Shown here in pieces: positions 37,820-44,120 of a DNA stretch of 64,000 bases (position 1 is its first letter; the number at the start of each line of letters is the position of its first letter). The position numbers and the translations under genes were made by a program. Source of the DNA: Haladaptatus sp. QDMS2 (GTDB lineage: Archaea > Halobacteriota > Halobacteria > Halobacteriales > Halococcaceae). The stretch lies in assembly GCF_029338295.1 (NCBI RefSeq), contig NZ_CP119791.1:1922001-1986000 (forward strand). The letters are read 5' to 3'. The notes under the pieces are model-generated. The model had not been told where the DNA came from, searched no databases, and was given only the letters and a program-made list of their open reading frames with translations.

Positions 37820-39163
37820 ATGGGTTTGTTCGACCGGCTCCGTGGCGACGATGCTCCTCGCGTCGCTTTCTTCGGTATCGACGGCGTACCGTACAGCCTT
37901 CTCGCAGAACACGAGGACGAATTTCCGAACCTCGCCGCACTCGCGGACGAGGGGGCGTCCGGTGCAATCGACAGCATCGTCCCGCCCGAATCGAGCGCCT
38001 GCTGGCCATCGCTTACCACGGGGAAGAATCCCGGTGAGACTGGTGTCTACGGGTTCCAGGACCGCGAGGTCGGTTCCTACGACACGTACGTCCCGATGGG
38101 GCGCGACGTGCAGGCGGAACGCCTCTGGGACCGCGTGACCTCCGAGGGACGCAACGCGACGGTGATGAACGTCCCCGTCACGTTCCCACCCCAGCGCAAC
38201 GTCCAGCGCATGGTCTCCGGGTTCCTCTCACCGAGCCTCGACAAAGCGAGCTATCCAGACGATCTGGAATCGACGCTCGCCGACTTCGGCTACCGAATCG
38301 ACGTGAACGCCAAACTGGGCCACGACGACGACAAGACCGCCTTCATCGAGGACGCCCACAAGACCCTCGACGGACGGTTCAAGGCGTTCAAGCACTTCGT
38401 CGAGCAGGACGACTGGGACCTCTTCTTCGGCGTCTTCATGACGACCGACCGGGTGAATCACTTCCTGTTCAAGGACTACGAACACGACGGCGAGTACAAG
38501 GAGGAGTTCATGGAGTTCTACCGGAAGGTAGACCGCTACCTCGGCGAACTCCGCAACGCGCTTGCAGACGACGTGACGATGGTGGTCGCGAGCGACCACG
38601 GCTTTACCACCCTTAACTACGAGGTTCACTGCAACGCCTGGCTCAACGAAGAAGGGTGGCTCGATTACCAGGATGACGACCACTCCGGACTCGACGACAT
38701 CTCCGGGGACACGAAGGCCTACTCGCTCATTCCCGGCCGCTTCTACATCAACTTAGAGGGGCGCGAACCCCGCGGCAGCGTCCCACAGGACGAATACGAA
38801 GCCGTCCGCGACGAACTCAAGTCGAAGCTCGAAGCACTCGAAGGCCCCGACGGCAAGAAGGTTGCACAGCGCGTGGTCAAGAAGGAAGAGGCTTTCCGCG
38901 GCGACCACGAGGACATCGCTCCCGACCTCGTCGTCATCCCGAACCACGGCTACGACCTGAAATCCGGGTTCAAGCCACACGGCGACGTCTTCGACGTCGG
39001 ACCACGAAACGGGATGCACAGTTTCGACAACGCCTCGCTCTACATCGACGACCAGAACGCGACCATCCGCGACGCGGACCTCTTCGACATCACGCCGACC
39101 ATCCTCGACCTGATGGATATCGACTTCGCCCGCGACGCCTACGACGGCGCGAGCCTGCTCTAA
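37820..39163 (+). CDS. Alkaline phosphatase superfamily / nucleotide pyrophosphatase-like enzyme
   Basis: 447 residues of the type I phosphodiesterase/nucleotide pyrophosphatase fold. The first metal Asp is in FFGIDGVPYSLL, the nucleophile is probably in SSACWPSLTTGKNPG, the distal metal site is VVASDHGFTTLNYEVH, and HSFDNASLYI closes the site. No signal peptide is present, so it is cytoplasmic. Related haloarchaeal and archaeal proteins occur near nucleotide and sulfur genes; the substrate is unknown. It is convergent with cetZ, overlapping by four bases. Confidence 0.87.
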   Translation: MGLFDRLRGDDAPRVAFFGIDGVPYSLLAEHEDEFPNLAALADEGASGAIDSIVPPESSACWPSLTTGKNPGETGVYGFQDREVGSYDTYVPMGRDVQAERLWDRVTSEGRNATVMNVPVTFPPQRNVQRMVSGFLSPSLDKASYPDDLESTLADFGYRIDVNAKLGHDDDKTAFIEDAHKTLDGRFKAFKHFVEQDDWDLFFGVFMTTDRVNHFLFKDYEHDGEYKEEFMEFYRKVDRYLGELRNALADDVTMVVASDHGFTTLNYEVHCNAWLNEEGWLDYQDDDHSGLDDISGDTKAYSLIPGRFYINLEGREPRGSVPQDEYEAVRDELKSKLEALEGPDGKKVAQRVVKKEEAFRGDHEDIAPDLVVIPNHGYDLKSGFKPHGDVFDVGPRNGMHSFDNASLYIDDQNATIRDADLFDITPTILDLMDIDFARDAYDGASLL

Positions 39164-40239
39164 AACAGGTCCTCTAACTGGTCGTTTTTGAACGCGGCCG
39201 CCGGGTCCGCCCGCTTCTCTGGGCGCGACTCGTGGGCCACTTTCGCCCGCTCCATGAACTCCCTGAGCCGTGGCGACCGCTCGACGCCACACACGAGCAC
39301 CAGCACCGCGATGCGCTCGCTGTCGAGCGGGAAGTCGCCACCACGAACCTGCATGCTCCCCGTCTCGTCTTCGAGCCACCGCCGCGCCTTTTCGACGCCC
39401 TTCCTCGAAAGTCGGTCGGGCTTACCCGCGACGACGAGCAGCGCAGCTTCAGCGTCCACCGCGTTCGGCAGACTTGACCCGGTGAGCAGCGCGTTCCGGG
39501 CAACACTCGTGATAACGGTCAGATTCTCGCCCGCGTCTGGACTCGCCGTCGCACTGGCGTAGCCGAGGGCAGCAATACCGCCCGCCCGGAGGGTGTTGAT
39601 GACCTCGCTCGAATCGACGACGCTCTCCCCGACACCCTCCGTCGCCTCGCCCGCCGCGAGCAGGAGGCCGACTCGCTGGGCGATGTGCTCGTTTATCGTC
39701 CCGAACCCTTCTTCGACGCTCTCGCCCGTTGCGTGCCACGCGTCGTTGTCGATGAGCAACACGGCGTCTGCCTCGCGGGCCACCGTCTTCAGCGACCGAC
39801 CTGCGTTCGCCTGATAAAGCGACCCCTCGCTACGCCCGGGGAGCACACCGATGACGTACACTGGAATGTCGTAGATTCGTTTCAGGTGGCGGGCGAGAAC
39901 CGGCGCACCGCCGCTGCCCGTGCCCCCGCCGAGTCCAGCGACGATGAACAGTGCCTCCGCCTCCGAGGTGATGCGCCCGTCGAGCGCGTCCATCACTTCC
40001 GGAGCGTCTTCGTCCATGATTTTCGCGCCGAGTTCGTTGTCGCCACCGACGCCGTGGCCCTTCACCCGCTCCTGGCCGATGAGTAGTGTATCGATGGAGA
40101 GTCCCTGGAGGTCCGCGTGCGCGGAGTTCACCGCGAGTGCTCCGCGAATCGCGTCGAACCCCATTCTGGCGTCGAACTCGGCCATTCGTTGCGTGAGTTT
40201 CCCCCCGGCCTGTCCGACCCCGATGAGAACGGCTTTCAT
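39160..40239 (-). CDS. cetZ: CetZ tubulin-like protein
   Basis: 359 residues. The opening MKAVLIGVGQAGGKL and the GTP signature GGGTGSG (104-110) are those of the haloarchaeal CetZ family, intermediate between FtsZ and tubulin. CetZ proteins shape cells and support motility rather than dividing them. The position between a phosphatase gene and the HVO_0758-containing block resembles Haloferax cetZ2, so a CetZ2-type paralogue is possible. The C-terminal tail carries the helical RADPAAAFKNDQLEDLF end. Confidence 0.93.
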   Translation of the reverse strand: MKAVLIGVGQAGGKLTQRMAEFDARMGFDAIRGALAVNSAHADLQGLSIDTLLIGQERVKGHGVGGDNELGAKIMDEDAPEVMDALDGRITSEAEALFIVAGLGGGTGSGGAPVLARHLKRIYDIPVYVIGVLPGRSEGSLYQANAGRSLKTVAREADAVLLIDNDAWHATGESVEEGFGTINEHIAQRVGLLLAAGEATEGVGESVVDSSEVINTLRAGGIAALGYASATASPDAGENLTVITSVARNALLTGSSLPNAVDAEAALLVVAGKPDRLSRKGVEKARRWLEDETGSMQVRGGDFPLDSERIAVLVLVCGVERSPRLREFMERAKVAHESRPEKRADPAAAFKNDQLEDLF

Positions 40240-40313
40240 ACGAGAATGTCGATTGCTGAACTAATCAACGTTGTCCCGGACATTCAAAGCAGATGGCGCG
40301 ACCAGCGTCGGCT

Positions 40314-41513
40314 ATGGTCGATACAGAAACGCTCGAAACCCGGTTGCAAGCCGTCGAACGCGCACTCACCGATTCCGACCACTCCGTCGCCGCGATTCTC
40401 AACGCTCAGCGGGAGGTGACGGCAGAGCCATCCCGACCCATCGAAGGGTCGGTGACGGGACCAGTCACGCTCTCGGTGGACGGAGCACCCTCGTATCTCA
40501 CACTGGCGGCGGTCACCCACGAGTCCGTACCCGCCGTGAACCGAGGCGAGACGACGCATCCGCTCGTCGCTCGAAATCAAAATCTGTTCACCATTCCGTA
40601 CGGCGATGTCGCGAATACGGTGACTGCGGGACTTGGAGGCAATGAGGAGCGGACAGGCCTCCGAACCGCCGCACAGGTCCTGAAAGCGGCGCGTTCCGTC
40701 TCAGCCGCCACCGCGAACGAATCGCTCGCCACGAACCGTCGTGAACTCGAAGCGTCGGTGTCTACGGGGACAGGTCACGTCACCTCACGCCTCGTCACGG
40801 CCCTGAGACGGGAGGGAGTTGGGGCGAGCGACGACGCCCGGGAGCAACTCGTCGAGGATGCGCTCGGTCGATGGCAGACACCAGCGGGCAGGGCGCTCGC
40901 ACTGGCAAACGGGTCGGCTACCCGGGCAGTGGCACGGGCGGGTGCGGCCGAAGACGACTCCCGCACCGCGGAGCGACTCGCCGTTCGGTTGGACGTGGCA
41001 GTCGCAGAATCGCTGCAAGAACAGGCATCCCGACCGACCGAGGAAGTGGTGAATACCACGCTTCAGACGACCAGAACCGTCTCCCAGACGGTGGCGAAAG
41101 AGGTCATCGCGAACGCGACAGAGCACCACAGCAAAGCGGTGCTCGAACGGCGACTCAACCGCTCGTTCGCCCGGCTTCCGGCTGGCCTTCCGGTCGCGCC
41201 GGTGCCGGGGTACTGGTACGCGACGACGAACCTCTGGACGGTCGATGTCGCTGGAGCATACACTCGATTCACAGTCGCGTCGTCCACTGGACCCCGGGGA
41301 ATCGCCTACACCCGGGCGGGTCAGACAGTAACGCTCGACGTCGATGACGACGGCGTCGTCGAACAGTTTGGACGCGCTCCGAAAATGTCGTTCACCGTCG
41401 AAACGGCTGTCGTGGTCGTCGTCCCACCGGGTCGCGCCGGCGTCGGCGATATCGACGGCGACGCGGACGAACGCTCTCCGGGCTGGCCCACCAGCAGTAC
41501 CGGTGGCAAGTGA
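40314..41513 (+). CDS. Apparent chimera: DUF7310-like N-terminus fused to DUF7286-like C-terminus
   Basis: 399 residues (an ATG at 40293 would add seven). Residues 1-30 (VDTETLETRLQAVERALTD) look like the start of haloarchaeal DUF7310 coiled-coil proteins. From about residue 45 on (SVTGPVTLSVDGAPSYLTL, and GLPVAPVPGYWYATTNLW near the end), the sequence looks like the C-terminal part of DUF7286 proteins. In other haloarchaea those families flank a Tad-like pilus/secretion cluster, as I recall. No signal peptide or membrane helix is present, although DUF7286 proteins are membrane-associated. It may be a deletion relic, though the frame is intact. Confidence 0.6.
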   Translation: MVDTETLETRLQAVERALTDSDHSVAAILNAQREVTAEPSRPIEGSVTGPVTLSVDGAPSYLTLAAVTHESVPAVNRGETTHPLVARNQNLFTIPYGDVANTVTAGLGGNEERTGLRTAAQVLKAARSVSAATANESLATNRRELEASVSTGTGHVTSRLVTALRREGVGASDDAREQLVEDALGRWQTPAGRALALANGSATRAVARAGAAEDDSRTAERLAVRLDVAVAESLQEQASRPTEEVVNTTLQTTRTVSQTVAKEVIANATEHHSKAVLERRLNRSFARLPAGLPVAPVPGYWYATTNLWTVDVAGAYTRFTVASSTGPRGIAYTRAGQTVTLDVDDDGVVEQFGRAPKMSFTVETAVVVVVPPGRAGVGDIDGDADERSPGWPTSSTGGK

Positions 41514-41547: not shown

Positions 41548-41976
41548 ATGTTGTACGACGTGAGCGACGAGCCGGGCGAACTGTCGCCCACCGAACTGCG
41601 AGCCCTCTACGAAGCTGAGTTGCGCGAGACGATTTCTGCGGTCGGCATCGAGTCCGTGGCCGCAGCGAGCGACGTGGACATAGAAACCGTCGAGGCGCTG
41701 GCTGGCGGCGAGTCACCCGCACTGACGCTCGAAGACGCAGCGGCGATTCTCGCCTGTGACGACGCGCTCCCCGACAAACGAACCATCCTGATGGAGGTCC
41801 GCGACCACCTGCTCATGGGAATGACCACGGCCATCCTCGACGTGGAAGCCATCGAGTCCGGGCTGAACAACCACCTCGACGCGCGCGACATCCAGCAGAA
41901 AGTCGAGGGTCGTGCGCCGATGACGCTGAGCGAGTTCGCAGCGCTCCACCAGTTCATCGAGAGTCGAAAACGCTGA
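41548..41976 (+). CDS. DUF5791 family protein
   Basis: 142 residues. The core LSPTELRALYEAELRETISAVGIESVAAASDVD and TLEDAAAILACDDALPDKRTILMEVRDHLLMGMTTAILDV match haloarchaeal DUF5791. It is helical with no visible catalytic motif. Its stop overlaps the ATG of the epimerase gene by one base (TGATG), so they are cotranslated. Function is unknown. Confidence 0.85.
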   Translation: MLYDVSDEPGELSPTELRALYEAELRETISAVGIESVAAASDVDIETVEALAGGESPALTLEDAAAILACDDALPDKRTILMEVRDHLLMGMTTAILDVEAIESGLNNHLDARDIQQKVEGRAPMTLSEFAALHQFIESRKR

Positions 41977-42869
41977 TGCGCGTCGCAATCCTCGGCTGTG
42001 GCTACGTCGGGCTGGAACTCGGTCGCCAGCTCACGCCCCGCCAGGAGGTGTGGGGCGTCAGGCGCTCTGCCGAGGGCCGAAACGCCATCGACGCGGCCGG
42101 TTTCGAGCCGATTCGCGCAGACCTGACCGACCCCGACTCACTCGGTGCGATTCCAGACATCGATGCCCTCGTGTTCGCGGCGAGTTCTGGTGGCCGCGGA
42201 GCGGCCGCTGCCCGCCGCATCTTCGTCGAGGGATTACAAGGAGCAATCGACCACTTCGGGGCGAGAGCGAACGCTCCAGACCGACTCGTCTACACCTCGA
42301 GTACAGGCGTCTATGGCGACCACGGCGGCGAGTGGGTGGACGAAGCGACGCCCATCGAGCCGACGACAGAGAAGACGCGTGTGCTCGCCGAAGCAGAACG
42401 AGTCGCCATCGAATCGGCCGCCGACGCGGGAATCGATGGAACAGTCGCACGATTCGCCGGGTTGTACGGCCCAGACCGCTACCGGCTCAACCGTTACCTC
42501 TCGGGCCCGGTCACGGAGGGGTATCTCAACATGGTCCACCGCGACGATGCGGCCGGTGCGCTGGCCTATTTCCTCGAAGCGGACCTTGCACGCGGGGAGG
42601 TAGTGCTGGTCGCAGACGACGAACCGGCCGCGAAGTGGACGTTCGCCGATTGGCTCGCCACGGAGTGCGGCGTGCCGGAACCGGCGAAGCGAACGAAAGC
42701 CGAGCGCCTCGAAGCCGACGCACTCTCCGAGGCGGCGAGGCGGCGGATTCTGACGAGCAAGCGCTGTTCGAACGACTATCTCCGCGCTCTCGGGTACAAA
42801 TTCGCGTTCCCGACGTACCGCGAGGGCTATCGCGCTGCTATCGACGCGTACCGCCAGCAGAACCGGTAG
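41976..42869 (+). CDS. NAD(P)-dependent epimerase/dehydratase-like SDR
   Basis: 297 residues of the extended SDR fold. The Rossmann motif is GCGYVGLELG, followed by LVFAASSGGRG, the YTSSTGVYGDHGGEW active-site segment and RFAGLYGPDRYRLNR. It resembles YeeZ-type proteins acting on nucleotide sugars or glycan precursors; the substrate cannot be told. It starts inside the stop of the DUF5791 gene. Confidence 0.86.
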   Translation: MRVAILGCGYVGLELGRQLTPRQEVWGVRRSAEGRNAIDAAGFEPIRADLTDPDSLGAIPDIDALVFAASSGGRGAAAARRIFVEGLQGAIDHFGARANAPDRLVYTSSTGVYGDHGGEWVDEATPIEPTTEKTRVLAEAERVAIESAADAGIDGTVARFAGLYGPDRYRLNRYLSGPVTEGYLNMVHRDDAAGALAYFLEADLARGEVVLVADDEPAAKWTFADWLATECGVPEPAKRTKAERLEADALSEAARRRILTSKRCSNDYLRALGYKFAFPTYREGYRAAIDAYRQQNR

Positions 42870-42935
42870 CCAGCGAAGAACCCATACCCAGTGTCGTGGT
42901 TGAGGGTAACATACTTACCAATTCGCGTAGAGCGA

Positions 42936-44120
42936 ATGGGTATGTCGAGACAGGCGGTTGTCGCAGGCGAATTCGGTCAACTTACCGATACCGCCTCGGC
43001 ATTCGCCGCGGAGAACCCGTTGCTCGTCGCTGCCGGTGGCGTTCTTCTCCTCGCACTGCTCGTCTTTGCGGTGCGGGCGGGAACGCCTCAACTGCGTCGG
43101 CATCCGAGTTCGAAGTTCTGCAAGCAATTGGCTCGATACGACGAGGTGACGGTGCTGATGCACCCGAACCCCGACCCGGACGCGATGGCGTGTGCGGCGG
43201 CAGTCGAATTCCTCGCAGAGAGCGTCGGGACGCGGGCAACGCTCCAGTATCCGGGAAAGATTCGCCACCAGGAAAACCGAGCGTTCGAGACGGTACTCGA
43301 CCTCGAACTGGTCCACATCGACACCGCAGGCGACCTCGCCTCCGAGAACGTCGTACTCGTAGACCACAACGTCCCACGGGGGTTCAACGGCGCATCAGGA
43401 ATCGTCCCGTTCGCCGTCATCGACCATCATCCGGGGACTGGAACGGGAACCGCCTTCACCGACTGTCGGACGGCCTACGGGGCGTGTTCGACGATTCTCG
43501 CGGAATACCTCGACGAACAGGGCTACGAACCCGACCGCGAGGACGCGGACGTAGAGAAACCGGTTCCCCGAACGCTCGCCACCGGTCTGTTGTACGGAAT
43601 TCAAGCCGACACGAAACATCTGACCAAGGGCTGTAGTGCGGCGGAGTTTCGCGCCTGCAGCTTCCTGTTCCCGGGCGTGGACGAGGATTCGCTCGACCGC
43701 ATCGCCAACCCGCAGGTCGGAGCCAACGTGCTCAAAATCAAGGCTCGCGCCATCACGGAGTGTGACTTAGACCACCCGCCGTTCGCCGTGAGCGACGTGG
43801 GTAACGTCGATATCGTAGACGCCATTCCGCAGGCCGCAGACGAACTCGTTCGCCTGGAAGGCTTTACGGCCGTCGTCGTGCTGGGGTCGAGCAATGGGAC
43901 CATCCACATCTCGGGGCGCTCCCGGGACGATCGGGTTCACATGGGAAAGACCCTCCAGGAGGTCGTAAACGACATCCCGATGTCGAGTGCGGGCGGCCAC
44001 GCGAGAATGGGCGGCGGACAGGTTTCGGTCGAACACATGGAGGGCATCGGCCCTCGAAAGGGGATGAACCGAGAGGAACTGATCGACCGCCTGTACGACG
44101 GCATGGCCGGCGAACTCTAA
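42936..44120 (+). CDS. Membrane-anchored DHH/DHHA1 phosphoesterase
   Basis: 394 residues (an internal ATG two codons later is equally possible). A short N-terminal region is followed by one membrane helix (about 29-45, LLVAAGGVLLLALLVFAV). The DHH domain has VLMHPNPDPDAMACA, LVDHNVPRG and the eponymous VIDHHPGTG. The DHHA1 end has SSAGGHARMGGGQVSVE. The family hydrolyses nano-RNA or cyclic dinucleotides; a membrane anchor recalls GdpP but no PAS/GGDEF module exists. The substrate is unknown. Confidence 0.87.
   Translation: MGMSRQAVVAGEFGQLTDTASAFAAENPLLVAAGGVLLLALLVFAVRAGTPQLRRHPSSKFCKQLARYDEVTVLMHPNPDPDAMACAAAVEFLAESVGTRATLQYPGKIRHQENRAFETVLDLELVHIDTAGDLASENVVLVDHNVPRGFNGASGIVPFAVIDHHPGTGTGTAFTDCRTAYGACSTILAEYLDEQGYEPDREDADVEKPVPRTLATGLLYGIQADTKHLTKGCSAAEFRACSFLFPGVDEDSLDRIANPQVGANVLKIKARAITECDLDHPPFAVSDVGNVDIVDAIPQAADELVRLEGFTAVVVLGSSNGTIHISGRSRDDRVHMGKTLQEVVNDIPMSSAGGHARMGGGQVSVEHMEGIGPRKGMNREELIDRLYDGMAGEL

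Follow-up and report, generated by a model that had tools for sequence, protein, structure and literature searches.

An in-frame DUF7310-DUF7286 fusion beside cetZ in Haladaptatus sp. QDMS2, the probable scar of a deleted type IV pilus operon

Why should an open reading frame next to cetZ begin like one haloarchaeal protein family and continue as the C-terminal part of another? The frame in question (40293-41513, 406 aa) lies in the window, the 64,000-nucleotide stretch of the Haladaptatus sp. QDMS2 genome that was analysed. The original prediction took it for a chimera left when one deletion removed a secretion-type cluster and fused its outermost genes in frame. From the comparisons presented here we consider it likely that the fusion is a scar, left by a single recent deletion of about 8 kb that took out a cetZ2-linked, pilB2/C2-type type IV pilus operon.

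Both parts of the chimera can be traced to their parent families. A Pfam search matched the ORF to positions 614-1000 of the 1000 positions of DUF7286 (PF23957) with 394 bits (E 2e-117) against a curated cut-off of 27, and the greater part of the frame is indeed the C-terminal portion of this family, as predicted. Residues 14-39 match positions 1-26 of the 83 positions of DUF7310 (PF23991), but the score of 24.3 bits (E 4e-5) stays below the curated cut-off of 40 because the N-terminal piece is truncated. Its origin is secured by nucleotide alignment: the fusion N-terminus and the DNA upstream of it align with their counterparts in the congener G002, where DUF7310 is intact, which bears out the earlier assignment of some 30 N-terminal residues to DUF7310. 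From DUF7310 the fusion thus keeps the region around the start codon and profile positions 1-26, and lacks the other 57. Of DUF7286 it retains about 387 of the 1000 profile positions, a part with 59% identity to the congener, and lacks the N-terminal 613, including the membrane segment. The intact G002 protein spans positions 1-1000 and starts with the hydrophobic segment VPFALVGVLLLVSSAALS, whereas no membrane segment is found in the fusion, a discrepancy that had been pointed out from the ORF itself. An AlphaFold model, with a mean pLDDT of 55 and values below 50 in the C-terminal part, was too poor for fold comparison.

The chimera is real, but the predicted start requires correction. In the homologous leader of both congeners (G001 and G002) an in-frame stop precedes the second ATG, so the fusion most likely starts at its own second ATG (M8), giving 399 aa, and the ATG at 40293 is likely unused. 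Two apparent homologues were set aside. A congener match to query residues 1-35 contains a stop and is merely conserved leader DNA, and L007 (Halorarius), matched over residues 10-403, is an ordinary 1008-aa DUF7286 rather than a fusion.

Features of the cetZ-DUF5791 region, in window coordinates.
Feature	Position	Strand	Basis
cetZ, CetZ2-like position, left flank of the deletion	39160..40239	-	Pfam CetZ_C and Tubulin
Divergent cetZ/DUF7310 intergenic region, TCAACGTTGTCCCG..CATTCAAA..	40240..40313	.	Conserved in both congeners, alignments
In-frame DUF7310::DUF7286 fusion ORF, 399 aa	40314..41513	+	Homology to DUF7310 start, Pfam
DUF7310-derived part, coiled-coil start, ~24-25 codons	40314..40385	+	Pfam, alignment
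Deletion junction, GTC common to both parents	40386..40392	+	Two-parent alignment
DUF7286-derived part, profile ~614-1000; 372 alignable codons, no frameshift	40393..41510	+	Pfam, codon alignment
DUF5791 gene, right flank, kept in all scars	41548..41976	+	Pfam, 165 bits
NAD-dependent epimerase/dehydratase, flank	41976..42869	+	Pfam
DHH/DHHA1 phosphoesterase-like gene, flank	42891..44120	+	Pfam

The missing genes are present in G002, where an intact cluster of about eight genes occupies the gap between cetZ and DUF5791 (locus L041, reverse strand). Their order is DUF7310 (100 bits in Pfam), DUF7311, a PilB-like ATPase of the T2SSE family (631 aa), a TadC/PilC-like protein (567 aa, with a weak T2SSF match under the cut-off), small pilin-like genes (two frames), DUF7284 and a full DUF7286 (1006 aa). 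DUF7310 and DUF7286 therefore do flank an ATPase and membrane-protein cluster beside cetZ, as the original prediction stated for many haloarchaea. The window and G002 are collinear on both sides of the cluster, the left flank being ~85% identical and the right ~78-80%. The alignment runs at ~85% until window position 40327 and resumes past the DUF7286-derived sequence to 46977. In a two-parent alignment the junction falls at residues 32-34, close to the predicted end of the DUF7310-like part at residue 30, with GTC as microhomology, and 7,967 bp are missing from the window relative to G002. Between 40239 and 41548 there is no T2SSE/VirB11 ATPase and no PilC/TadC-like protein. The window genome (G000) was also searched for the cluster elsewhere: it has no further DUF7286 or DUF7310 and no close PilB2 copy, and its best remaining ATPases are paralogues with 26-32% identity to the lost one. 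With an intact locus in a close relative, collinear flanks and a clean junction, sequence comparison supports a single deletion between DUF7310 and DUF7286 as the explanation of the window, and the gene-order comparison that the original prediction called for comes out in its favour.

The surroundings are those of the cetZ2-linked pilB2/C2 regulon, with an adjoining cetZ and, on the other flank, DUF5791 and the epimerase. DUF5791, which 120 of 122 good genomes in the order sample possess, is probably arCOG04674, a predicted transcription-factor-like protein, judging by position and description. The cetZ orthologues of G001 and G002 are 92% identical and occupy the same place. Conservation of the cetZ/DUF7310 intergenic region suggests that the lost operon's presumed promoter is still in place. 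The regulon has been described beside cetZ2 in Haloferacales and Halobacteriales, not in Natrialbales (PMC9856176); an ftsZ-like gene is reported near subclade 4F loci, and the coiled-coil arCOG07564 in related loci (PMC4858521). No mention of DUF7286, DUF7310, DUF7311 or DUF7284 was found in the literature searched. Of this regulon the window keeps the place beside cetZ and pieces of the two terminal genes (opening codons of the first, 3' portion of the last), but it lacks the ATPase, PilC/TadC-like, pilin-like, DUF7284 and DUF7311 genes.

The other congener has lost the cluster as well. Relative to G002, G001 lacks 8,374 bp, a stretch that begins within DUF7311 and ends at DUF7286 position ~950. 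Its DUF7310 is complete, unlike that of the window, but of DUF7286 only positions 952-1000 are left, without the segment 614-950 that is present in the window. The two deletions are non-nested, so that neither derives from the other, and since G001 groups with the intact G002 as its sister in the flank tree (100% support), the losses were independent. Among 392 genomes of the order at least nine, from four families, carry such scars (G000, G001, G068, G102, G135, G151, G169, G179 and G189), a minimum count from a screen that used DUF7286 alone. Three of the nine (G000, G068 and G102) are in frame; the others are broken or short remnants.

Several scars lie in genus g26, which belongs to another family (family and genus labels are survey labels, with names attached by inference). 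Beside cetZ, G068 (L053:3520-4318) carries an in-frame DUF7310::DUF7286(745-1000) chimera. The same domain order in an unrelated haloarchaeon had been named in the original prediction as evidence against a deletion, and in form it exists here, yet as a second, independent event, because the junction differs (DUF7286 from 745, not 614) and the sister G042 is intact. For the same reasons G068 was rejected as evidence for an ancestral fusion gene. In G102 the start of DUF7311 is joined in frame to DUF7286 757-1000, in G135 an out-of-frame junction links the ATPase start to DUF7286 802-1000, and G075 has a clean gap of ~150 bp. Four members of the genus (G147, G042, G089 and G112) are intact and interleaved with the scars in the tree. 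Elsewhere, G151 has cetZ followed by a frameshifted DUF7286 (596-813/912-997), G189 has DUF7286 274-620 and a truncated cetZ, and G169 and G179 have the last 30-70 DUF7286 residues left. All nine scars keep the DUF7286 3' end beside DUF5791, G189 only its last residues (DERSPGW). DUF5791 is nearly universal and its 5' region is presumably needed and under selection, with deletions stopping before the gene. The short common bases at the junctions fit illegitimate recombination. As in deletion-generated fusion genes and pseudogenes of bacteria and archaea, one deletion joins two operon genes through short junction homology; the difference is that here one locus was struck many times, three times in frame.

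Other kinds of change were also seen at this locus. In G243 (L103:6105-16363) ~7.5 kb of other DNA lies inside DUF7286 near position 910, and the DUF7286 of G224 (G224:C1:1998797-2001895) is full-length apart from one in-frame TAG, which may mark the onset of decay. In the window's own family f1, fifteen genomes of other genera (g2, g3 and g4) have neither a cetZ2-like gene (E<=1e-60) nor DUF7286, with DUF5791 in 14 of the 15; a joint loss of cetZ2 and the pilus locus may have taken place there. In G085, G122 and G142 (genus g38) a long distance separates DUF7286 from cetZ, and either the regulon or cetZ has moved. L061 (G118) is a rearranged locus with cetZ and DUF7310 ~9 kb from DUF7284/DUF7286 and a DUF7286 frame broken near ~110.

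Does the open frame mean that the fusion is used? The DUF7286 C-terminal domain (pattern PAGLPVAPVPGYWYATxNxW...GVGDxDGxADERSxGW) could have a pilus-independent role, in-frame fusions behind operon starts being kept by selection, and convergent chimeric genes would then exist beside cetZ in unrelated haloarchaea. We regard this as rather unlikely. It would account for the fact that operon starts were fused in frame three times independently, twice that of DUF7310 and once that of DUF7311 (G102), but three in nine is also the chance expectation, other scars retain just the last 10-70 residues, and the kept part would be misplaced without the N-terminal membrane segment. A custom codon model (MG94-type, F3x4) gave a dN/dS of 0.18 for the G000 branch against a background of 0.21, with 1 rejected (p=5e-5), and of 0.114 for the g26 scar branches against 0.125, with 1 rejected at 2e-13. 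Bayes factors for neutrality since a uniformly random branch time versus constant constraint were 0.10 for G000, i.e., random-time neutrality is ~10-fold less likely than constraint, 0.22 for G068, 0.06 for G102 and 0.10 for G135, and these three show the same low-dN/dS pattern as G000. These values speak against a neutral scar. However, the out-of-frame G135 and the frameshifted control G151 (dN/dS 0.18) are equally low, so the statistic can reflect recency alone and was rejected as proof of function; recognisable surviving scars are biased toward the young. The G000 value is that of the broken control, and as a measure of relaxed selection after deletion it depends on when the deletion occurred. 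Relaxation was detected in G189 (dN/dS 0.65, p=0.013). On the protein level the G000 branch is shorter than the branch leading to the intact G002 gene. The probability of an open frame under neutrality is 0.12 for a deletion at the last 10% of the G000 branch and 0.013 at 20%, and the expected stop gains would confine a neutral scar to roughly the last 10%. The codon statistics are compatible with either alternative, and the original wording, recent or used, stands.

The regulon has also been suggested to be a mobile element, acquired relatively recently and retained in some orders only (PMC9856176). If it was gained recently at cetZ2, the window could show an old partial insertion, or incomplete gain. 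Outside the regulon, gene neighbourhoods look the same whether pili are present or absent (PMC9856176), and family f7 (Natrialbaceae-like by inference) often has cetZ directly adjoining DUF5791, a bare arrangement that may be ancestral in that family. Yet the scars hold both terminal genes with broken ends, and an ancestral site that was never filled cannot contain these. The losses fall on terminal branches of clades in which intact loci occur, and sequences of the sampled families (f1, f4, f6, f10, f12 and f17) cluster by family in the DUF7286 tree, some deep nodes having low support; such a gain is very improbable as an explanation of the window, and for this genus the congeners settle the question. 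It is just as hard to believe that the cluster is present in the cell and was collapsed in the assembly. The junction lies inside a 2.95-Mb contig, the ends of the intact locus have merely ~3 nt in common, the divergence of the fragment from G002 matches its long branch, and like scars occur in other, independent assemblies.

The intact congener locus, collinear flanks, junction, absence of the cluster elsewhere in the genome and losses in sister lineages all speak for deletion, and on balance a young, non-functional scar is the best reading. In such a deletion the break would have used a few bases of homology within DUF7310 and DUF7286, the first and last genes of the operon, and the reading frame would have been preserved by a one-in-three chance. 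The fusion would be transcribed from the old operon promoter, which would now lead into the DUF5791-epimerase genes. Its product, with neither the DUF7286 membrane anchor nor any partner, is probably a cytoplasmic by-product deprived of its old role, and its frame may be open only because the event is young. The locus itself appears to be prone to recurrent microhomology deletion.

The scars give a direction to the change, contrary to the suggestion of a mobile, recent acquisition (PMC9856176). Together with a DUF7286 tree that follows families, and with losses on terminal branches beside intact sisters in two genera, they favour an old regulon, inherited mainly vertically and repeatedly lost, at least outside f7, and argue that its patchy distribution reflects loss and not recent gain. 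As cetZ usually stays when the regulon is lost, CetZ2 probably has a job that does not require this pilus. With natural deletion lineages and intact congeners side by side, the link between CetZ2 and the pilus can be tested directly.
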